Under the pieces are notes generated by a model, which saw only the letters and a list, made by a program, of their open reading frames with translations, did no database searches and was not told where the DNA came from. A program made the position numbers and the translations under genes. DNA of 64,000 bases from Motilibacter peucedani (GTDB lineage: Bacteria; Actinomycetota; Actinomycetes; Motilibacterales; Motilibacteraceae): contig NZ_RBWV01000010.1 in the NCBI RefSeq assembly GCF_003634695.1, forward strand, positions 434,001 to 498,000, written 5' to 3'. How positions within the stretch are numbered: position 1 is the first letter of the stretch; every line of letters begins with the position of its first letter. This document shows positions 16,389-45,814 of the stretch, in pieces.

Positions 16389-16460
16389 GGGCGATTAGCT
16401 CAGTGGGAGAGCGCCTCGTTCACACCGAGGAGGTCGGCGGTTCGAAACCGCCATCGCCCA
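16389..16460 (+). tRNA. tRNA-Val (anticodon CAC)
   Basis: 72 bases with acceptor GGGCGAT/ATCGCCC, anticodon stem CCTCG/CGAGG around TTCACAC, T-arm GGCGG TTCGAAA CCGCC, discriminator A, CCA not encoded. Acceptor and D-arm are identical to the tRNA-Val(GAC) 3 kb away. Confidence 0.96.
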
Positions 16461-16520
16461 CCCGAGACCCCTGCTCCACCGGGCCGGCAGCGACGCGGCC
16501 CCCGGCACCACCTCGCACTC

Positions 16521-16584
16521 AGCGGTAGCGACCGCGGTCCGGCGGTAGCCCAGGGGGTACCGGCCGCCGGTCCTTGCTACCGCT
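16521..16584 (+). repeat. 64-bp palindromic repeat, copy 1
   Basis: Bounded by 9-bp inverted ends AGCGGTAGC and GCTACCGCT, with a nested near-palindrome (GACCGCGGTCC...GGCCGCCGGTC) and central GGTAGCC and GGTACC. It can fold into one long hairpin. Identical to the copy at 16678 except for one base. Form and size recall REP/REPIN-type elements. Confidence 0.8.
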
Positions 16585-16629
16585 CGCCTGTTCGGTGCTC
16601 CGCTTCGCGACGTGGGCGTAGGGGTGGGG

Positions 16630-16665
16630 CTACCTCAGCGGTAGCAGCGTCGGCCAGGCGGTAGT
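16630..16665 (+). repeat. Degenerate GGTAGC repeat unit
   Basis: GCTACCTCAGCGGTAGC forms a short palindrome, followed by another GGCGGTAGT. It shares the end motif of the two 64-bp copies that flank it but lacks their core, so it is probably a decayed or partial copy. Confidence 0.5.
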
Positions 16666-16677
16666 GCTCTGGCTCTG

Positions 16678-16741
16678 AGCGGTAGCGACCGCGGCCCGGC
16701 GGTAGCCCAGGGGGTACCGGCCGCCGGTCCTTGCTACCGCT
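16678..16741 (+). repeat. 64-bp palindromic repeat, copy 2
   Basis: Same 64 bases and same orientation as the copy at 16521, differing only by C for T at internal position 18. Ends are AGCGGTAGC and GCTACCGCT. Confidence 0.8.
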
Positions 16742-16802
16742 CGCCCGGGTCACCCCGCCAGGTGGGCCGCAAACGGGTGGAGGGGTGCTGCGCGTGCCTC
16801 GG

Positions 16803-16856: not shown

Positions 16857-18836
16857 GTGCCGAACCTGCGCATCACCGTCGCGACTGCTGCCGAGCGGGC
16901 CGAGCGCGAGGTGGCGACGGGCACGACGGCGGCGGACCTGTTCGGCGACGACAAGGCGGTCGTGGTCGCCCGGGTCAACGGCACGCTGCGCGACCTGTCG
17001 CACGCGCTGGCCGAGGGTGACGTGGTGGAGCCCGTGCGTGCCGACGAGCCCGACGGCCGCCAGGTCGTGCGGCACTCCGCTGCCCACGTGCTGGCCCAGG
17101 CGGTGCAGGACATCAACCCGAGCGCGAAGCTGGGCATCGGCCCGCCCATCGTCAACGGGTTCTACTACGACTTCGACGTCGAGACCCCGTTCACCCCTGA
17201 CGACCTCGCCAAGATCGAGAAGCGCATGCAGGCCATCCAGAAGGAGGGCCAGTCGTTCGCCCGCCGGGTGGTCACCGACGACGAGGCGCGCGCCGAGCTC
17301 GCCGACGAGCCCTACAAGCTCGAGCTCATCGGGCTCAAGGGCGGGGCGGGCGACGAGGGCGACGCCTCGGTCGAGGTCGGCGGCGCCGAGCTGACGATCT
17401 ACGACAACCTCAAGCGCGACGGCTCGCTGGCGTGGAAGGACCTCTGCCGGGGCCCGCACGTGCCGACGACCCGGCACATCCCGGCGTTCGCGCTGCAGCG
17501 CAGCGCGGCCGCCTACTGGCGCGGCAGCGAGAAGAACCCGCAGCTGCAGCGCATCTACGGCACCGCGTGGGAGTCGCGCGAGGCGCTCAAGGACTACCAG
17601 ACCATGCTGGTCGAGGCCGAGAAGCGCGACCATCGCCGCCTGGGCACCGAGCTCGACCTGTTCTCCATCCCGGACGAGATCGGCTCGGGCCTCGCCGTCT
17701 TTCACCCCAAGGGCGGCGTCGTGCGCCGGGTGATGGAGGACTACTCGCGCCGCCGGCACGAGGAGGCCGACTACTCCTTCGTCAACACCCCGCACCTGAC
17801 CAAGAGCTCGCTGTTCGAGACCTCGGGCCACCTCGACTGGTACGCCGACGGCATGTACCCGCCCATGCAGCTCGACGAGGGCCAGAGCTACCACCTCAAG
17901 CCGATGAACTGCCCCATGCACAACCTGGTCTTCCGCAGCCGCGGACGGTCCTACCGCGAGCTGCCGCTGCGGCTGTTCGAGTTCGGCACCGTCTACCGCT
18001 ACGAGAAGTCCGGCGTCGTGCACGGGCTGACCCGAGCCCGCGGCTTCACCCAGGACGACGCCCACATCTACTGCACCAAGGAGCAGATGCCGGGCGAGCT
18101 CGACAGCCTGCTTACCTTCGTGCTCGACCTGCTGCGCGACTACGGCCTCTCGGAGTTCTACCTCGAGCTCTCCACCCGCGACCCGGAGAAGTCCGTCGGC
18201 AGCGACGAGGACTGGGCCGAGGCGACCGAGGCGCTCCGCGCGGCCGCCGAGAAGCAGGACCTCGAGCTGGTCATGGACCCCGGCGGCGCCGCGTTCTACG
18301 GCCCGAAGATCTCCGTACAGGCCAAGGACGCCATCGGGCGCACGTGGCAGCTCTCGACCATCCAGGTCGACTTCCAGCTGCCGCAGCGCTTCGACCTCGA
18401 GTACCAAGCGGCCGACGGCACCCGGCAGCGCCCGGTGATGATCCACCGCGCGCTGTTCGGCTCGATCGAGCGCTTCTTCGCCGTGCTGCTCGAGCACTAC
18501 GCCGGCGCGTTTCCCGCGTGGCTGGCGCCTGTGCAGGTCGTGGGCATCCCGATCACCGAGGCGCACGTCGAGCACCTGCGCGAGGTGGCCGCGGAGCTCA
18601 AGCGTCACGGCGTACGCGTCGAGGTCGACGCCTCGGACGACCGGATGCAGAAGAAGATCCGCAACGCGCAGAAGCAGAAGGTCCCGTTCATGCTGCTCGC
18701 GGGCGACGAGGACGTCGCCAAGGGCGCCGTCTCGTTCCGCTACCGCGACGGCGAGCAGAAGAACGGCGTGCCGGTCTCCGAGGCGGTCGCCGAGATCGTG
18801 GCAGCCATCGCCGGGCGCCAGGCGGCCACGCACTAG
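16857..18836 (+). CDS. thrS: Threonine-tRNA ligase
   Basis: 659 residues, full length. TGS domain (1-65), editing domain with [10 protein letters not shown] and the second zinc-site-like segment DLCRGPHV, then the class II catalytic core: motif 2 [15 protein letters not shown], zinc/threonine ligands in [26 protein letters not shown] and motif 3 near [16 protein letters not shown]; an anticodon-binding domain ends the protein. GTG start with GAGAGGA upstream. First gene of a run that continues with the HIT hydrolase. Confidence 0.96.
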
Positions 18837-36546: not shown

Positions 36547-38913
36547 GTGGCGGACGAGCGTGCGGTCGTCGCGGTCGAGGCAGACCGTTCGGGTCCCGCT
36601 GCGCCCCTCGAGGTCACCGACGTCCCTGCACCCGCGCCTGAGGCGCCCACGACCACGCGGATGCGCAAGCGGCTGGCCCGCCTCGGCGCCCAGCGCAGCA
36701 CCAACCCCGTGCTCGAGCCGCTGTTCCGCACCGTGCTCGCCACCCATCCCAAGGCCGACCTGCGCGACCTCGAACGCGCCTACGAGGTGGCCGAGCGCTG
36801 CCACCGCGGCCAGCGCCGCCGCAGCGGTGACCCCTACATCACCCATCCGCTGGCCGTGGCGACGATCCTGGCCGAGCTCGGCATGACCACGCCGACCCTG
36901 TGCGCGGCGCTGCTCCACGACACCGTCGAGGACACCGACTACACCCTCGAGCAGGTCAGCTCCGACTTCGGGCCCGAGATCGCCGGTCTGGTCGACGGCG
37001 TGACCAAGCTCGACAAGGTCAAGTACGGCGACGCGGCGCAGGCCGAGACCGTGCGCAAGATGGTCGTCGCGATGTCGCGCGACATCCGCGTGCTGGTCAT
37101 CAAGCTGGCCGACCGTCTGCACAACGCCCGCACCTGGCGCTACATCCCCGCGGAGAAGGCCGAGTCGAAGGCGCGCGAGACCCTCGAGATCTACGCCCCG
37201 CTGGCCCACCGGCTCGGCATGAACACCATCAAGTGGGAGCTCGAGGACCTCTCGTTCGCGACGCTCTACCCCAAGATGTACGACGAGATCGTGCGCCTGG
37301 TCGCCGACCGCGCGCCCAGCCGCGACGACTTCCTCGCCGGCGTGATCGACAGCGTGACCGCCGACCTGCGTGAGGCCAAGATCAAGGCGGTCGTCACCGG
37401 CCGGCCCAAGCACTACTACTCCGTCTACCAGAAGATGATCGTGCGCGGCCGCGACTTCGCCGACATCTACGACCTGGTCGGCATCCGCATCCTGGTCGAC
37501 TCTGTGCGCGACTGCTACGCGGTGCTCGGCTCGGTTCACGCGCGGTGGAACCCGGTGCCCGGCCGGTTCAAGGACTACATCGCGATGCCCAAGTTCAACC
37601 TCTACCAGTCGCTGCACACCACGGTGATCGGGCCGGAGGGCAAGCCGGTCGAGCTGCAGATCCGCACGCACGCGATGCACCGGCGGGCCGAGTACGGCGT
37701 GGCCGCCCACTGGAAGTACAAGGAGGACGGCACCCGCAGCGGGACGAGCGTCGCGGAGCCCTCCGGCAGCCAGGACATGGCCTGGCTCAAGCAGCTGCTG
37801 GACTGGCAGAAGGAGACCTCCGACCCGGGCGAGTTCCTCGACTCGCTGCGCTTCGACCTCTCGAGCGCCGAGGTCTACGTCTTCACCCCCAAGGGCGACG
37901 TCGTCTCCCTGCCGGCGGGCTCGACCCCGGTCGACTTCGCCTACGCCGTCCACACCGAGGTAGGCCACCGCACGATCGGTGCGCGGGTCAACGGCCGGCT
38001 CGTGCCGCTCGAGAGCAAGCTCGACAACGGCGACGTCGTGGAGATCTTCACCTCCAAGGCGGCGACCGCCGGCCCGTCGCGCGACTGGCTCGGCTTCGTC
38101 GCCTCGCCCCGCGCCCGCAACAAGATCCGCCACTGGTTCTCCAAGGAGCGGCGCGAGGAGGCCATCGAGCACGGCAAGGACTCCCTCGCCCGCGCGCTGC
38201 GCAAGCAGGGCCTGCCCCTCCAGCGCATGCTCTCGAGCGAGATCCTCACCGCGCTCGCGGCCGAGCTGCGCTACCCCGACATCTCCGGGCTCTACGCCGC
38301 GATCGGCGAGGGCCACGTCAGCGCGCAGTCCGTGGTCAGCAAGCTGGTGCAGTCGTTCGGCGGCGAGGAGGGCACCTCCGAGGACCTCGCCGAGGCGACG
38401 GTCCCCAGCTCGGCACGGCTGGCCCGCGGGCGGGCCCGCCCGGGCGGCGACCCCGGCGTCATCGTCACCGGAGCGCCTGACGTCTGGGTGAAGCTGGCCC
38501 GCTGCTGCACCCCGGTGCCGGGCGACCCCATCGTCGGGTTCGTGACGCGCGGCAACGGCGTCTCGGTGCACCGCGGCGACTGCGTCAACGTGGCTGCGCA
38601 GGGCCTCGACCCCGAGCGCATGGTCGGCGTCGAATGGGCGCCCACCGCGTCCAGCGTCTTCCTCGTCGCGATCCAGGTCGAGGCGCTCGACCGCTCGCGG
38701 CTGCTCTCCGACGTCACGCGTGCGCTGTCCGACCAGCACGTCAACATCCTCTCGGCCTCGGTCACCACCACCCGCGACCGCGTGGCCGTCTCGCGCTTCA
38801 CCTTCGAGATGGGCGACACCAAGCACCTGGGCCACGTGCTCAAGGCGGTGCGCAGCGTCGAGGGCGTCTTCGACGTCTACCGGATCACCAGCGCCGCACC
38901 CGCCCTGGGCTAG
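36547..38913 (+). CDS. relA: Bifunctional (p)ppGpp synthetase/hydrolase
   Basis: 788 residues. Makes and breaks the alarmone (p)ppGpp. Disordered head (1-60), HD hydrolase ([43 protein letters not shown]), synthetase ([37 protein letters not shown]), TGS ([14 protein letters not shown]), a zinc-finger region ([11 protein letters not shown]) and a C-terminal ACT domain. Both catalytic centres look intact. GTG at 36547 is preferred over GTG 36541 because AGGAGG overlaps the latter. Confidence 0.95.
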
Positions 38914-38916
38914 CCT
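38911..38916 (+). promoter_or_regulatory. -10 box before the NCS1 permease gene
   Basis: TAGCCT overlapping the relA stop, 40 bases before the permease ATG, so the following pair can be transcribed separately from relA. Confidence 0.35.
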
Positions 38917-38950
38917 GCAGCTCCCCACCTCCTCGAGCAGGGACGGCCAC

Positions 38951-40420
38951 ATGTCCACAGCCCCGACGTCGGCGGCCTCGCGGATCAGCGGTGTCGAGGT
39001 GCGCAGCATCGACTACGTGCCGCTCGACGAGCGGCACGGCAAGGTCTGGAGCCAGGGACCGCTGTGGTTCATGAGCAACGCCCAGATCGCGACGCTCGCC
39101 GTAGGCGTGACCTCGGTGACGCTGGGCGGCAACCTGATCTGGTCGCTGCTCGCCATCGTGCTGGGTGCCCTGATCGGCACGCTGTTCATGGCCTTCCACA
39201 GTGCCCAGGGCCCGCAGCTCGGCCTGCCGCAGATGATCCAGTCGCGCCCGCAGTTCGGCTACGTCGGCGCGCTGCTGGTCTGGGCGTTCGCCTACCTGCA
39301 GTACGCCGGGTTCAACATCTTCAACACCATCCTGGCCGGCGACGGGCTGCACAGCACGGTCCACGGCCCGGCCAAGATGTGGATCGTCATCGCCACGGTG
39401 CTCGCAGCGGTCGTGGCGCTGGTCGGCTACGACCTCATCCACCGCGTCGAGCGCTACCTCGCCTTCGGCTTCCTGGTCATCTTCGGTCTGCTCACGATCG
39501 GCGTGCTGACGTTGAACTACCCGCCGGGGTCGTTCGACCTGGGTGGCTTCAAGTGGACTCCGTTCCTCGCCCAGTTCGGCGTCGTGGCGGGCTACCAGAT
39601 CAGCTGGGCCATCTACGTCTCCGACTACTCGCGATACCTCCCGCCCGACGTCACGGTGCGCAAGACGTTCTACTGGACCTACGGCGGCTCGGCGCTCGGC
39701 GCCATCTGGCTGATGTGCCTCGGCTCGGCACTGGCCGCGTGGGCGGGGGAGCAGTTCGACACGATCAGCTCGCTCAAGGGCGCCGGCAACAACATCTTCG
39801 ACGGCTTCGGTCCGATAGTGGTGCTGTTCTCGACCCTCGGCCTGGTCGCCGTCACCGCGCTCAACATGTACGGCGGGTCGCTCACAGCGATCAGCGCGGT
39901 CGACTCGCTGAAGAAGGTGCGGCCCACCATGACGATCCGCGTCGTCACGGTGCTGGGCACTGCGGTCCTGAGCCTCGTGCCGGCGCTGCTCAGCGGTGAG
40001 TCGTTCCAGGAGAACTTCGAGTTCTTCCTGCTCCTGGTGCTCTACCTGTTCATCCCATGGACCGCGGTCAACCTCGTCGACTACTACGTGGTCCGCCGTG
40101 GTCACTACGCCATCGCCGAGATCTTCAACCCCGACGGCATCTACGGTCGCTGGGGCTGGAACGGCATCATCGCCTATTGCGTCGGCTTCGCTGCGATGCT
40201 GCCGTTCTTCAGCACCAGCAAGTACTCCGGCTGGGTCGCGAATGCGCTCGACGGTGCCGACCTCTCGCTGTTCGTCGGCCTGCCGGTCGCAGGCATCCTC
40301 TACTACGTGCTGAGCAAGAACCTCGACCTCGCCGGCGAGGAGCGGCTGTCGCGCGAGGAGGCCGTCGAGCTCGAGGCCGCGGCGCGGGCGCACGGGCGGC
40401 CCGAGGGCCACCACGCGTGA
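38951..40420 (+). CDS. NCS1-family nucleobase permease (cytosine/purine type)
   Basis: 489 residues with about 12 membrane helices. FMSNAQIATLAVG, GPQLGLPQMIQSRPQFGYVGA (shortened here to GLPQMIQSRPQFG), WAIYVSDYSRYLPP and VDYYVVRRGHYAI are typical of the cytosine/uracil/allantoin symporter family. Substrate cannot be read from the sequence. The amidase gene downstream overlaps its stop, so the pair probably takes up and hydrolyses one compound. Confidence 0.88.
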   Translation: MSTAPTSAASRISGVEVRSIDYVPLDERHGKVWSQGPLWFMSNAQIATLAVGVTSVTLGGNLIWSLLAIVLGALIGTLFMAFHSAQGPQLGLPQMIQSRPQFGYVGALLVWAFAYLQYAGFNIFNTILAGDGLHSTVHGPAKMWIVIATVLAAVVALVGYDLIHRVERYLAFGFLVIFGLLTIGVLTLNYPPGSFDLGGFKWTPFLAQFGVVAGYQISWAIYVSDYSRYLPPDVTVRKTFYWTYGGSALGAIWLMCLGSALAAWAGEQFDTISSLKGAGNNIFDGFGPIVVLFSTLGLVAVTALNMYGGSLTAISAVDSLKKVRPTMTIRVVTVLGTAVLSLVPALLSGESFQENFEFFLLLVLYLFIPWTAVNLVDYYVVRRGHYAIAEIFNPDGIYGRWGWNGIIAYCVGFAAMLPFFSTSKYSGWVANALDGADLSLFVGLPVAGILYYVLSKNLDLAGEERLSREEAVELEAAARAHGRPEGHHA

Positions 40421-41823
40421 GCACCGACGCGTGGGACAAGGCCGCAGACGTACGCGCCGGCCGGGTCTCGTCGGTCGAGCTGGTGACCGCCGCGCTCGAG
40501 CGCCTCGAGCAGACCCAGCCGGAGCTCAACGCCTTCACCCAGGTCTTCGCCGAGCAGGCGCTCGACGACGCGCGGGCGGCCGACGACCGCGTACGCAGCG
40601 GTCGCGACCACCCGCCGCTGCTGGGGTTGCCGGTCTCGGTCAAGGACCACATCTGGATGGCGGGGGTGCCCGCCACCAACGGATCCGTGGCGCTGCGCGA
40701 CTTCGTGCCGCCGGAGGACGCGGTGGCGGTCACGCGCCTGCGGGAGGCCGGTGCTGTCGTCGTCGGCAAGACGAACAACCCCGAGTTCTGCTACCGCGCC
40801 TACACCGACAACGCGCTCTACGGCCTGACCCGCAACCCGTGGGACCTGTCGCGCACGCCGGGCGGGTCGAGCGGGGGAGCGGGCGCCTCGGTCGCCGCCG
40901 GCGTCACCGACGTGGCGCTCGGCACCGACGGCGGCGGGTCGATCCGCATCCCGGCGGCGTTCTGCGGCGTCGTCGGGCACAAGCCGACCTTCGGCCGGGT
41001 GCCGAAGGAGCCGGGGTTCAAGGGCTGGAAGACGCTGTCGGTCGACGGGCCGCTCACGCGCTCCGTGCGCGACGCCGCCCTGGCACTGCAGGTGCTCTCG
41101 GGTGCAGCGCCAGGCGACGACATGACCTGGCCCAGCGAGGCGGTCGACCTCGCCCGCGTCGACGAGGTCTCGCTCGACCTCCGCGGCCTGCGCGTCGCCT
41201 GGTCGGCCGACCTCGGCGTCTCACCCGTCGACGACCAGGTGCGCGACGCCTTCATCGCGGTGCTCGAGGTGCTCGAGGGTCTCGGCGCGCGGCTGGAGGA
41301 AGCCGCTCCCGTCACGGAGCACCCGGCTCCGCTGTGGAACTCGCTGGCCCTGGTCGAGGGCTACTCCTCGGAAGGCCCGCTGCTCGAGCGCTTCCGCGAC
41401 GTCATGACGCCGGGGACGGCCGAGATCATCGAGGCCGGCGCCGCCGCGAGCGGCTGGGAGTACGTCGACGCCCTCCACGCCAAGGGCCGCTTCACCCGTG
41501 CCTGGGAGGAGTTCTTCACCCACCACGACCTCGTGCTGACCCCGTCGATGCCGGTCACGGCGTTCGGCGTCGAGCACCAGACGCCGCAGGAGGTGGGCGG
41601 CCGCCCGGTCGACCCCTTCTTCGACGACTGGTGCGCGCTCGCCCTGCCCGCCAACCTCGCCGGCCTGCCCGCGACGTCGGTGCCGTGCGGGCTGGCGGCC
41701 GACGGGCTGCCCGTCGGCCTGCAGGTGATGGGGCCGCGCTGGGCCGACGGGCTCACCCTCGCCTTCGCCGCTCTGGTCGAGAAGGCCGTGCCCTGGCAGG
41801 GCTTCGTCCCGTCCGCGGGCTGA
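40417..41823 (+). CDS. Amidase (amidase-signature family)
   Basis: 468 residues. The Ser-cisSer-Lys triad is present: Lys in LPVSVKDHI, then [16 protein letters not shown] with the cis-Ser, and [16 protein letters not shown] with the nucleophile. It is not obviously GatA, which would sit with gatB/gatC. GTG at 40417 overlaps the permease stop (GTGA), linking it to import of a nucleobase-like amide or ureide. Substrate unknown. Confidence 0.88.
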
Positions 41824-41830
41824 GCGGGGC

Positions 41831-43618
41831 TCACACCTCGCCGTCTCGCGCCTCCTGGACGGCGCTCGCGGCGTTGACGAGCGCGAGGTGGCTCAGCGCC
41901 TGCGGGGTGTTGCCGACCGCCTCGCCCGTCGCCGGGTCGACCATCTCGGCGAGCAGCCCGAACGACCGCGTCCGCTCGAGCGTGCGCTCCATCAGGGAGG
42001 CAGCCCGCTCGACCGAGCCGGTGAGGGCGAGCGCCTCCACCGTCCAGAACGAGCAGGCGAGGAACGCCGCCTCCTCCTCGCGCATGCCGGAGTAGCGGTA
42101 GACGAACGGGTCCTCGCCGAGCTCGTCGAGCACCGCCTCGACCGTCGAGCGCATCCGCTCGTCGCGGTCGAAGCCGTAGCGGGCGCCGAGCAGCACGCCG
42201 GCGTCGAGCGCGTCGCTGCCGGCGTAGAAGGTGTAGGACTGCCGCGCCTCGGACCAGCAGTGCTCCTCGACCCAGGCGCGCACCCGGTCGGCCTCCATCG
42301 CCCACCGGCGCGAGTCGCCCTCGAGCTGGCCGAGGTCGGCGAGCCGGCATGCCCGGTCGAGCGCCTGCCAGCAGCTCATCTTCGACAGCGTGTAGTGCTG
42401 CTCGTCGTGGAGCTCCCAGATGCCGGCGTCCCGACGCTGCCAGAGGTCGCAGCAGCGGTCGGCGAGGGCGGCGAGGCGCCGGCGCGTGCGCAGGTCGAGC
42501 ACGTGCCCGCGCTGCACGCAGAGGAACACCATCTGGAACAGGTCGCCGTAGGGGCCGAGCTGCAGCTGCTCGGCGGCGTCGTTGCCGTAGGTGACCGGCC
42601 GGCTGTGGAGGTAGCCCGGCACGTCGCGCGTGTGCGAGCCGGAGGGCAGGCTCCCGTCGAGCGCGTAGAACGGGCGCAGCTGCGGGCCGTGCCGGTCGAC
42701 GGTGGCCAGCAGCCAGGCCAGCGAGGCGTGGATCTCCTCGTCGAGGCCCATGCGCACGAAGGCGTCGAGGGTGTAGGCAGCGTCGCGCACCCAGCTGTAG
42801 CGGTAGTCCCAGTTCTTCGTGCCGCCCGGCCGCTCCGGGAGCGAGGTCGTCGCCGCCGCGGCGAGCGCGCCGCTGGGTGCGTAGACCAGCAGCTTGAGCG
42901 CGAGGGCGCTGCGGCGTACGTCGGCCTCCCACGGGCCGTCCCAGTGCAGGGTGCGCGACCAGTCGCGCCATCCTTCGGCCGTGCGCTCGATGCGCGCCTC
43001 GACGTCCTCGAGCGGCGGCAGCGGCAGCGGCTCTCGCTCGGTCGCCACGACTGCGAGCACGCCGGTCGCGCCGGCCGTCGCGGTCCAGCGGCCCGACACG
43101 CTGCGCGGACCGGTGACGGGCTCGCCGACGCCGCGGGTGCGTACGCCGATGGTGAGGTCGTCGAGGTGCAGCAGGCCGTCGGCGTCGCTCCAGGGCGAGA
43201 GCGTGCCGAGCGCGGTGCCGGGCGCCACCTCCCACGCCATCTCGACCTCGCCGTCGAGCCCCTCGACGCGGCGGGCGAGCTCCGACCACGGCAGCCGGCC
43301 GGCGACACCGGTGCAGACGGCGTCGGTCACCCGCACCGAGCCGCTCGGCGTCGTGAAGACGGTCTCGACCACGTTGGTGCCCTCGAGGTAGCGCCGCTCG
43401 ACCTCGAACTCGCCCACCGGGTGCAGCAGCACCGCGCCGCCCTCGGCGGGGTCGAGCAGCGCGGCGAACGCCGGCGGCGAGTTGAGGTCGGGAAGCGGCC
43501 ACCAGTCGACCGCGCCGTCGAGGGCCACCAGGGCGACCGAGCGCCCGTCGCCGATGCCGGAGTAGTCGCCGACCGGCGCGTAGCCCTCGACCCGGCGCGG
43601 TCGTCGCCTGTCGCTCAC
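41831..43618 (-). CDS. Glycoside hydrolase family 15 protein
   Basis: 595 residues, cytosolic, no signal. N-terminal beta-sandwich ([21 protein letters not shown]) then an (alpha/alpha)6 barrel with [37 protein letters not shown] and [18 protein letters not shown]. This is the GH15 group that includes bacterial trehalases and glucoamylases; alpha,alpha-trehalose is a fair guess because otsA is in the same chromosome. GTG at 43618 overlaps the SDR stop, so the two form an operon. Confidence 0.88.
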
Positions 43619-44508
43619 GGGGTCGGCATGCCCCCGGTGACCGAGAGGGTCTCGCCGACGACGTAGCTCGACTCCTGGCTGGCGAGGAAGACGTACGGCG
43701 CGGCCAGCTCGGCGGGCTGGCCGGCCCGGCCGAGCGGGGTCTGCGCACCGAACTCCGGCAGCTTGTCCGGCGGCTGGCCGCCGGCGGTCTGCAGCGGGGT
43801 CCACACCGGCCCGGGCGCGACCACGTTGACGCGGATGCCCTTCGGGCCGAGCTGCTGTGCCAGCGCCTTGCTGAAGGTGTTGATCGCCGACTTCGTCGAG
43901 GCGTAGTCGACCAGCGTGGGCGACGGGGAGTACGCCTGCACGGAGGAGGTGTTGATGATCGAGGAGCCCGCCGGCAGGTGCGGCAGCGCGGCCTTGATGA
44001 TCCAGAACATCGCGTAGACGTTGGTCTTGTAGGTCTCGTCGAACTGCTCGGTCGTGATGTCGGTGAGCGACTCGGCGAACTGCTGCTTGCCGCCCACGTT
44101 GACCACGACGTCGAGGCCGCCGAGCGCCTCGACCGCCTGCGCCACCAGCGACGTGCAGTAGGCCTCGTCGACCAGGTCGCCCGGCAGCGCGACCGCCTTG
44201 CGGCCCGCGGCCTCGATGAGCGCGACCACCTCGTCGGCGTCGGCCTGCTCCTCGGGCAGGTAGGACAGCACCACGTCGGCGCCCTCGCGCGCGTAGGCGA
44301 TCGCCACCGCCCGCCCGATGCCGCTGTCGGCGCCGGTCACCAGCGCCTTGCGCCCCTCGAGCCGGCCGGTGCCGCGGTAGGTCTGCTCGCCGTGGTCGGG
44401 CTCGGGGTCCATCTTCAGGGCGAGCCCAGGGCCGTCCTGGGTCTGCTCCTCGAAGGTGGGCTGGGCGTACTGCGTCGTCGGGTCCTGGAAGGTGTACTGG
44501 TCGCTCAC
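43615..44508 (-). CDS. Short-chain dehydrogenase/reductase (YghA/YhdF-like)
   Basis: 297 residues. NAD(P) motif [16 protein letters not shown], active site [21 protein letters not shown] (here cited by YASTK) with Ser, Tyr and Lys in order, and [15 protein letters not shown]-type tail ([14 protein letters not shown]). The extended N-terminus with Tyr/Gln ([13 protein letters not shown]) is typical of the YghA/YhdF branch often tied to stress. GTG at 44508 gives this; an ATG 19 codons upstream is not favoured. First gene of the leftward pair with the GH15 enzyme. Confidence 0.85.
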
Positions 44509-44584
44509 GGGCGTGCTCCACTGGCAGGTCGGGGTCCGGTGAGGACTCCCTGCCCCGCGGCGCACCGCAGCATGCAGCGGGGGA

Positions 44585-45814
44585 CTAGCGGGTGAACTCA
44601 GCCAGCGCCCGCTCGGCCTCGGCCAGCCACGAGCGGCGGGCCTCCAGCGAGGCCTCGGCGTCGGCGAGCTCGCGCTCCTTGCCCGCGGCGCGCGCCTTCT
44701 CGGCCTTGGTCTCGAGCTGCGAGATCGCCTGCTGCAGCATGCTCACCGCGGCCTCGGCACGAGCCCGCGCCTCGGGGTTGGTGCGCCGCCACTCGTCCTG
44801 CTCGGCGTCGCGCACGGCGTCCTCGACCCGGCGCAGCCGGCCCTCCACGCGGTCGCGGTCGCCGCGGGGCACGTGCCCGACCGACTCCCAGCGCTCGGCG
44901 ATGCCGCGCAGCGCGCGCCGCGCCGCCTTGTGGTCGGTGATCGGCAGCAGCGCCTCGGCCTCGGCCGCCAGCGCCTCCTTCTGCTCGAGGTTGACCTTCT
45001 GGTCCGAGTCGCGCTCGTCGAACACCGCGTTGCGGGCTGCGAAGAACGCGTCCTGCGCCGCGCGGAACCGCTGCCACAGCGACTCCTCGTCGTCGCGGCC
45101 GGCCCGCCCGGCCGCCTTCCAGCGGCTCATCAGGTCGCGGTAGGCACCGGCGGTCGGGCCCCACTCCGTGGACCCGGAGAGCTCCTCGGCCTGCCGGACC
45201 AGCTCCTCCTTGCGCGCCTTGGCCTCGCCGCGCTCGGCGTCGAGGGTCGCGAAGTGCTGGCGGCGCACCTTGTCGAACGCCGAGCGCGCGGCGCTGAAGC
45301 GCTTCCAGAGCTCGTCGTCGGTGCGGCGGTCGAGCCGCGGCGCCTTCTTCCACTCCTCGAGCAGCGCGCGGAAGCGGTCGCCGGTGGCCTTCCACGCCGT
45401 CGAGGTCGCGAGCGACTCCGACTCGGCGACGATGCGCTCCTTGTCGACGCGAGCGGCTTCACGGGCCTGGGCCTTGGCCGCATCGGCCTCGACCTGCTTC
45501 TCCGCGGCCGTGGCGGCCAGCGCGTCGAGCCGGGTGCCGAGGCCGGCGAGGTCGCCGACGGCGTTGGCGGTGGACACGGAGGTGCGCAGCCGCTCGACCG
45601 AGCTCGCGACGTCCTTGGCGGGCACCTCGGCCTTGCGGACGCGCTGCTCGAGCAGCGAGACCTCGGCGGCGAGCGCGTCGTACTTGCGGGAGAAGTAGGC
45701 GAGCGCCTCCTCCGGCGTCGCGCCGGGGTAGGAGCCGACGGCGCGCTCGTCGTCGCCGACGCGTACGTAGACGGTGCCGTCCTCGGCGACGCGCCCGAAC
45801 TCGCTGGTGGCCAT
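44585..45814 (-). CDS. DUF349-repeat coiled-coil protein
   Basis: 409 residues, almost wholly helical, charged and Ala-rich. After a short N-terminal beta region ([13 protein letters not shown]) come at least three DUF349 units, each with a W-K-x-(A/T)-G or W-x-x-(A/V)-G core: [41 protein letters not shown] and [19 protein letters not shown]. Family function unknown. Two bases after the cyclophilin gene and cotranscribed with it. Confidence 0.85.

Follow-up and report, generated by a model that had tools for sequence, protein, structure and literature searches.

Dispersed four-box palindromes of Motilibacter peucedani and the AbiEi-nuclease family gene that they bracket point to a partnership of repeats and nuclease

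The closest described counterparts of short palindromic repeats such as those treated here are the REP/REPIN elements with their RAYT partners, which are Y1 HUH transposases. A REP is a stem-loop of 20-40 bp tagged at one end by an unpaired GTAG or CGTC, and a REPIN is an inverted doublet in extragenic space which can form one hairpin. In PMC3116915, REPINs are described as occurring in tandem clusters including their flanks, with RAYT genes beside the repeats. The authors of PMC3733652 place REPs behind genes, describe RAYT genes flanked by terminal inverted repeats in species lacking REPs ('TIRtrons') and give no known mover for CGTC REPs that occur without a RAYT. In a different system, the AbiE type IV toxin-antitoxin, the AbiEi proteins are autorepressors which bind inverted repeats at their own promoters, as stated in PMC7319586.

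The stretch of DNA analysed here, called the window throughout, comprises 64,000 nucleotides of Motilibacter peucedani (NZ_RBWV01000010.1, positions 434,001 to 498,000). The gap between tRNA-Val (CAC; 16389-16462, plus strand) and thrS (16857-18836, plus strand; named threonyl-tRNA synthetase from the sequence-only reading and the translation) contains a repeat cluster at 16512-16745 (plus strand). Sequence comparison and folding delimited two palindromes of 64 bp, at 16521-16584 and 16678-16741, both on the plus strand and 157 bp apart, the sole difference between them being T/C at 16538 versus 16695; the wider match around them covers 77 bp at 95%. Their 9-bp ends, AGCGGTAGC/GCTACCGCT, are exact, and the first copy folds with -41.3 kcal/mol (z -3.4), a stability reached by none of 200 shuffles. 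The boxes of this copy lie at 16521-16529 and 16541-16549 in forward and at 16556-16564 (diverged, GGTACCGGC) and 16576-16584 in reverse orientation. Thus the sequence-only reading, which had reported two nearly identical palindromes in the same orientation, a long hairpin with 9-bp ends and an adjoining tRNA gene, was borne out on these points. The decayed unit which it had reported proved to be a lone half-unit, whose two boxes point the same way at a distance of 20 bp (16637-16664, plus strand). The two copies are a 157-bp unit duplicated locally in tandem, a situation found at several other loci too. Rfam matches in the window were restricted to tRNAs. The tRNA neighbour looks incidental, since among the element loci scanned for tRNAs no second one was found next to such a gene. 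In G001, a species of the same genus, the tRNA-Val/thrS gap is only about 100 bp long and carries no box.

A genome-wide count of the palindrome, as proposed in the sequence-only reading, was carried out on the M. peucedani assembly (G000; 4.19 Mb, 17 contigs, completeness 100%). The pattern AGCGGTAGCN{20,50}GCTACCGCT gave 20 forward matches, some of them overlapping, and none with the reversed control. A profile built from 25 sequences without the use of structure, run on 60 genomes, detected 27 full-length copies, distributed over 16 gaps between genes, all with E 1e-9 or better. Outside M. peucedani the best match was partial, with E 7.9e-4; the remaining 59 genomes include one from its genus and three from its family. 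The exact 64-bp pattern was likewise present in one of the 60 genomes, hence the palindromes form a dispersed, species-private family. A scan of named genomes, which may omit G000, for GCTACCGCCN{11}GCTACCGCT yielded eight single matches in unrelated taxa, which were treated as chance. Twelve matches in viral contigs were also treated as chance, one being a perfect tandem repeat of 20 bp that includes GGGGCTACCGCC (L154:13000-13110) which was judged unrelated.

Each copy is composed of four inward-facing 9-bp boxes (A/G)GCGGTAGC in a 20-bp phase, joined by variable linkers, the start-to-start distances of GCGGTAGC being > 20 > 14 < 20 <. Some loci extend into direct arrays of boxes at 19-21 bp spacing, and loci often contain local tandem duplications, with two or three nearly identical copies spaced at 125-180 bp and repeated together with their flanks. 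Conservation was evaluated on 14 copies from nine loci, chosen by outer boxes and length alone, using one copy per locus. The majority base reached 89.5% in the inner boxes, 66.7% in the linkers and 45% in random columns, a difference between boxes and linkers of the kind expected from selection. The two linker arms of one copy resembled each other no more than arms taken from different copies did (5.2 and 5.27 of 11, respectively; p 0.47), and helix covariation was not found (81.8% vs 81.2% in shuffled sets), although, of five covariation measures, two pointed indecisively the other way: changes on both sides numbered 33 vs 27.2 (reached by 32 of 500 shuffles), and the score was 0.133 vs 0.120 (reached by 49 of 500). 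A hairpin selected as such, in RNA or DNA, was therefore rejected. Since the boxes are more conserved than the linkers, the arms are no more complementary within copies and covariation was not detected, the boxes rather than the hairpin look constrained, and the hairpin follows from their mirror placement.

Two observations on word usage stand beside these results: the words GCGTACGC / CGGCGTAC are strongly over-represented (z 17.9 in the intergenic DNA of M. peucedani, and z 52 overall in G001), and GGTAGC is the top intergenic word of M. peucedani, a rank that is not independent, the stretches having been chosen around the elements. Separately, the element pair at C2:53611-53873 adjoins a gene for a DUF222 protein (L097:7064-8740; C2:54063-55742).

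One gene of this genome is bracketed by the elements. C13:72713-73681, coding for 322 amino acids, has one copy on its left side (72587-72650, 63 bp upstream) and three copies together with half-units on its right side. Its product appears to combine an AbiEi-type DNA-binding N-terminal part with a C-terminal part resembling the Vsr/MTES_1575 nucleases of the PD-(D/E)XK type; Pfam recognizes AbiEi_4 alone (E 1.1e-10), and the nuclease end was assigned through the family alignment. The closest matches in G001 share 43-51% identity with it, and at the counterpart site of G001 the flanking genes stand about 1.6 kb closer together, with neither the gene nor the boxes between them.

The protein family is common in the class, with 77 matched places in 20 of 21 genomes. 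For testing 62 of these places were taken, of which three were dropped because of short flanks, leaving 59; four poor gene models (G002_C8, G002_C7, G003_C1, G012_C107) were kept among the 59 and left out of the DnaA-box count (n=55). The family tree holds 57 of the 62 members, and the alignment 22, picked for good gene models and mostly also for flank repeats. Within these 22, Pfam matches were AbiEi_4 in 13, MTES_1575 REase in 13, AbiEi_1 in nine and DUF559 in five, the AbiEi models of PADLOC matched all 22, and E212, D244, E255, G258 and R280 are invariant, D257 nearly so. The family profile matched the 'endonuclease-like protein' 3hrl with E 1e-5 and, weakly (E 0.02-0.07), PvuRts1I, the mobile intron protein 3r3p and Vsr (1vsr). 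The members are mostly unannotated and recorded under names such as 'DUF559', 'AbiEi family antitoxin domain-containing' or 'hypothetical'. None was found in phage records, and none was confirmed in viral contigs.

The bracketing of genes by repeats recurs, with other boxes, in many members of this family. The flank score, defined as the inverted 10-mers shared by the two 350-bp flanks of genes of 600-1500 bp, was compared with that of 766 control genes (stretches of G000-G004 and G016, paralogs and near neighbours removed). A score of at least 8 was reached by 25 of 59 family members vs 15 of 766 other genes (p 1.8e-21), and within the genomes supplying the controls by 15 of 27 members (p 1e-16); a score of 20 was reached by no control, and in a blind ranking of 810 genes ranks 1-9 were all occupied by the family. 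The four best controls, when inspected, belonged to other protein families and shared simple, G+C-rich words. The remaining 34 of the 59 members fall below the threshold. The C13 gene itself (own_C13) scored only 2 because the shared box is short, and the case for it rests on the mapped elements and not on the flank score. Among 11 named loci, from Tsukamurella tyrosinosolvens, Arthrobacter, Rhodococcus ruber and Nonomuraea gerenzanensis, a score of at least 8 was obtained with inverted words in six, with direct words in six and with either in eight; R. ruber WP_029540190.1 has a 47-bp palindrome on each side. At the locus of Tsukamurella WP_074850915.1 (L337) both flanks of the gene consist of long direct arrays of the CCCCCA type (direct score 43).

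Dispersal of the flank words is the exception, and the repeats of most members are not dispersed. When 13 members in five genomes were tested, a clear genome-wide excess was obtained for own_C13 and G001_C2_101, a weaker one for G003_C2_138 and G003_C2_224, and none for the others. The word CCGTACGG of G003 looked like a dispersed family belonging to G003_C7, but was rejected when the counts disagreed.

Upstream of the family genes a further signal was recognized. The octamer TTRTCCAC, in either orientation, occurs in the zone of 220 bp upstream plus the first 30 bp of the gene in 21 of 55 members vs three of 730 controls (p 1.6e-23), the controls being additionally freed of all stretches L276-L295, while downstream it was found in one of 55; L276, L290 and L293 are examples of upstream occurrence, and the C13 gene has only a relaxed form (GTGGACGA). 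This octamer matches the actinobacterial DnaA box.

Comparison with relatives revealed other pairs of gene and repeat. A private repeat of G001, GTGATCATGCRNRTCYTGG, has 187 exact matches there and none in G000 and 58 other genomes (listed as GTGATCATGC, with examples at L216:1001-2230, L111:503 and L113:8995); its copies lie behind stop codons, both direct (30-35 bp) and inverted. Around the family member G001:C2:101239-102018 the same boxes occur four times on one flank and, inverted, three times on the opposite flank; CGATCATGC boxes, four and six at 22 bp spacing, flank its ortholog G003:C2:137905-138633. Among intergenic words GATCATGC leads in G001 and CGATCATG is raised in G003, while G002 and G004 show no strong word. 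G001:C2:101239, G003:C2:137905, G002_C6 and G004_C256 group in a single clade (support 100/100); at 42-56% protein identity the orthologs of G001, G003 and G004 keep GATCATGC in mirror image, and that of G002 retains only a remnant on the left. A second repeat of G001, TTGATCGGGG, was seen to flank another member (L279; G001:C3:378967-379887), with eight occurrences outside this locus in the G001 stretches examined (including L198, L200 and L216) and none in the G000 stretches.

The ortholog clade adjoins a DUF349 gene, in G001 between DUF349 and RelA/SpoT. In the window the corresponding gap, at 38914-44584, has the RelA/SpoT gene (36547-38913) on one side and the DUF349 gene (44585-45814) on the other; it holds four other genes and, by tblastn, no relative, whereas G001, G002, G003 and G004 all hold the ortholog beside DUF349/RelA at this position. 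The GATCATGC repeats are absent from the whole M. peucedani genome as well, and thus the DUF349-linked gene and its repeat are jointly absent. In general, boxes are shared by five of 80 protein pairs at 40% identity or more vs 12 of 1405 below (p 0.0015), one of the five being a near-duplicate pair, and by one of 17 pairs at 50-70%; most related pairs have no common box, therefore the boxes change fast. In two further orthologous gaps G001 has different palindromes. The G001 gaps are empty of the element, but the intergenic sequences of the two species cannot be aligned, so that no insertion bordered by a clean target-site duplication could be resolved. We also considered whether genes were gained at the element loci: at eight of 11 loci the neighbours were not simply conserved relative to G001, but 20 of 55 gaps of the window, and about nine of 17 among those over 100 bp, are not conserved either, and no claim is made.

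These results point to repeats and nuclease as partners in a system not yet described. In our judgement the 64-bp palindromes are probably, with somewhat better than even confidence, the recognition elements of a partnership with the C13 protein, which would work like RAYT and REP with a different enzyme. It is quite likely that the C13 protein binds the box (A/G)GCGGTAGC in 20-bp-phased arrays and dyads; that elements are copied by cut-and-repair is held with slightly less than even confidence. In the proposed mechanism the AbiEi part would bind the box arrays and the Vsr-like part would nick or cut at or near the element, whereupon repair of the break may copy the element into new gaps and may also duplicate it in tandem with its flanks, giving the units of 125-180 bp present at most loci. 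The DnaA-box-like site upstream could tie the expression of the gene to replication. The outcome would be the arrangement described, a gene bracketed by elements with further elements dispersed over gaps between genes, in most cases directly behind a gene.

According to another explanation the boxes are operators of an AbiEi-family regulator, those upstream serving autorepression and the dispersed ones constituting its regulon, with no mobility involved. Upstream boxes alone could be explained in this manner because AbiEi autorepressors bind inverted repeats at promoters (PMC7319586), and the conservation of the boxes resembles protein recognition. However, the boxes stand in mirror image on both sides of the genes, the proteins retain the nuclease site and the copies are absent from the sister species. 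The position of the dispersed copies also disagrees with operators: all 14 clusters inspected are intergenic, apart from an overlap of a few bases with the end of one called ORF at C11:285.9k; seven loci are convergent and the remaining seven follow a 3' end, as judged by gene orientation and, for two neighbours, by eye. A 15th gap, C13:72587, is divergent. Taken together, the operator explanation is unlikely, even if it keeps a minor share of the probability.

The partnership of repeats and C13 protein has also to be distinguished from classical REP/REPIN elements, that is, from palindromes moved as non-autonomous elements by a RAYT. The resemblance to these elements as described in PMC3116915 and PMC3733652 is considerable: the copies are intergenic, they are inverted doublets capable of forming one hairpin as REPINs are, they form tandem clusters with flanks, lie mostly behind genes, carry GTAG inside each box and belong to a species-private repeat type, and a single-copy gene is flanked by repeats. 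But this gene is AbiEi-Vsr-like and not a RAYT, and the elements consist of four short boxes with variable linkers in place of a tagged hairpin. The search for a TnpA-REP (Y1/RAYT) gene, which the sequence-only reading had recommended, gave no PF01797 match in this genome of 100% completeness, vs matches in five of 14 control genomes including E. coli, by which a RAYT partner is largely refuted; no HUH transposase was found. The GTAG lies inside the box that pairs with its mirror copy instead of being unpaired at the end of a stem-loop of 20-40 bp, and half-units fold no better than shuffles (mean -5.0 vs -5.6 kcal/mol, 32 arms), thus the element is not the classical GTAG-tagged REP hairpin. 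Of the REP/REPIN-like interpretation made from the sequence, the dispersed, intergenic and hairpin-capable nature of the repeats, beyond local duplication, was upheld, while the Y1 partner was not. Since two defining features of that family, the Y1 transposase and the tagged hairpin, are missing, the system is considered as working like REP/REPIN-RAYT without being a member of it, and a classical REP/REPIN origin has very little probability.

A site family with a host function, for example in chromosome organisation, appears similarly improbable. The contig bearing dnaA (C9, 740 kb; dnaA at 487686-487886) has none of the 16 loci, which are located on six contigs totalling 2.56 Mb, but the chance of finding none of 16 on C9 is about 0.04, the contigs are unordered, and the family is confined to a single species and missing from its congener. 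It is equally hard to see the elements as transcription terminators spread by selection: their position behind genes and the strong hairpin would suit this role, but C2:37.8k and C12:429.9k have a separate G+C hairpin between the stop codon and the element, and the pairing of linkers is not kept. Finally, a local duplication confined to the thrS gap, suggested by two copies one base apart and named in the sequence-only reading as the case that only local copies would indicate, is refuted by the 27 full-length copies.

The recognition-element partnership which we favour also differs from the known relatives of its protein. With the AbiEi antitoxin the family shares N-terminal DNA-binding and C-terminal AbiEi regions, and AbiEi binds inverted repeats; the family differs by the extra nuclease domain, and no AbiEii nucleotidyltransferase toxin gene is annotated beside eight annotated named members, as judged by annotation. 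With the Vsr-fold endonucleases (Vsr, MTES_1575/DUF559 and the 'mobile intron protein' 3r3p) it shares the invariant E...D...E(x)D...R pattern and the profile matches, but it joins the nuclease part to an AbiEi region and has repeats particular to each gene at its flanks. The elements themselves resemble MITEs in being short, non-coding and dispersed with inverted ends. In open-licence literature, at the level of titles and abstract openings, no link of AbiEi, DUF559 or MTES_1575 proteins to flanking or dispersed repeats was found, and novelty is unproven.

More tentatively, the AbiEi-Vsr-like genes might represent actinobacterial elements of a new class, which propagate repeats and in which an autonomous core gene would carry flanking arrays as its private recognition ends. 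In some lineages these ends could escape and multiply as REP-like families, species would keep differing pairs and lose both partners together, and the copying by cut-and-repair, timed to replication through the DnaA box, would proceed with no known transposase. A widespread and mostly unannotated protein family, entirely different from the RAYTs, has genes with repeats of their own on either flank. Should the partnership prove real, it would give the AbiEi-nuclease proteins a role, would explain species-private intergenic repeats in high-G+C actinobacteria and would provide a testable non-HUH route for the spreading of short palindromes.
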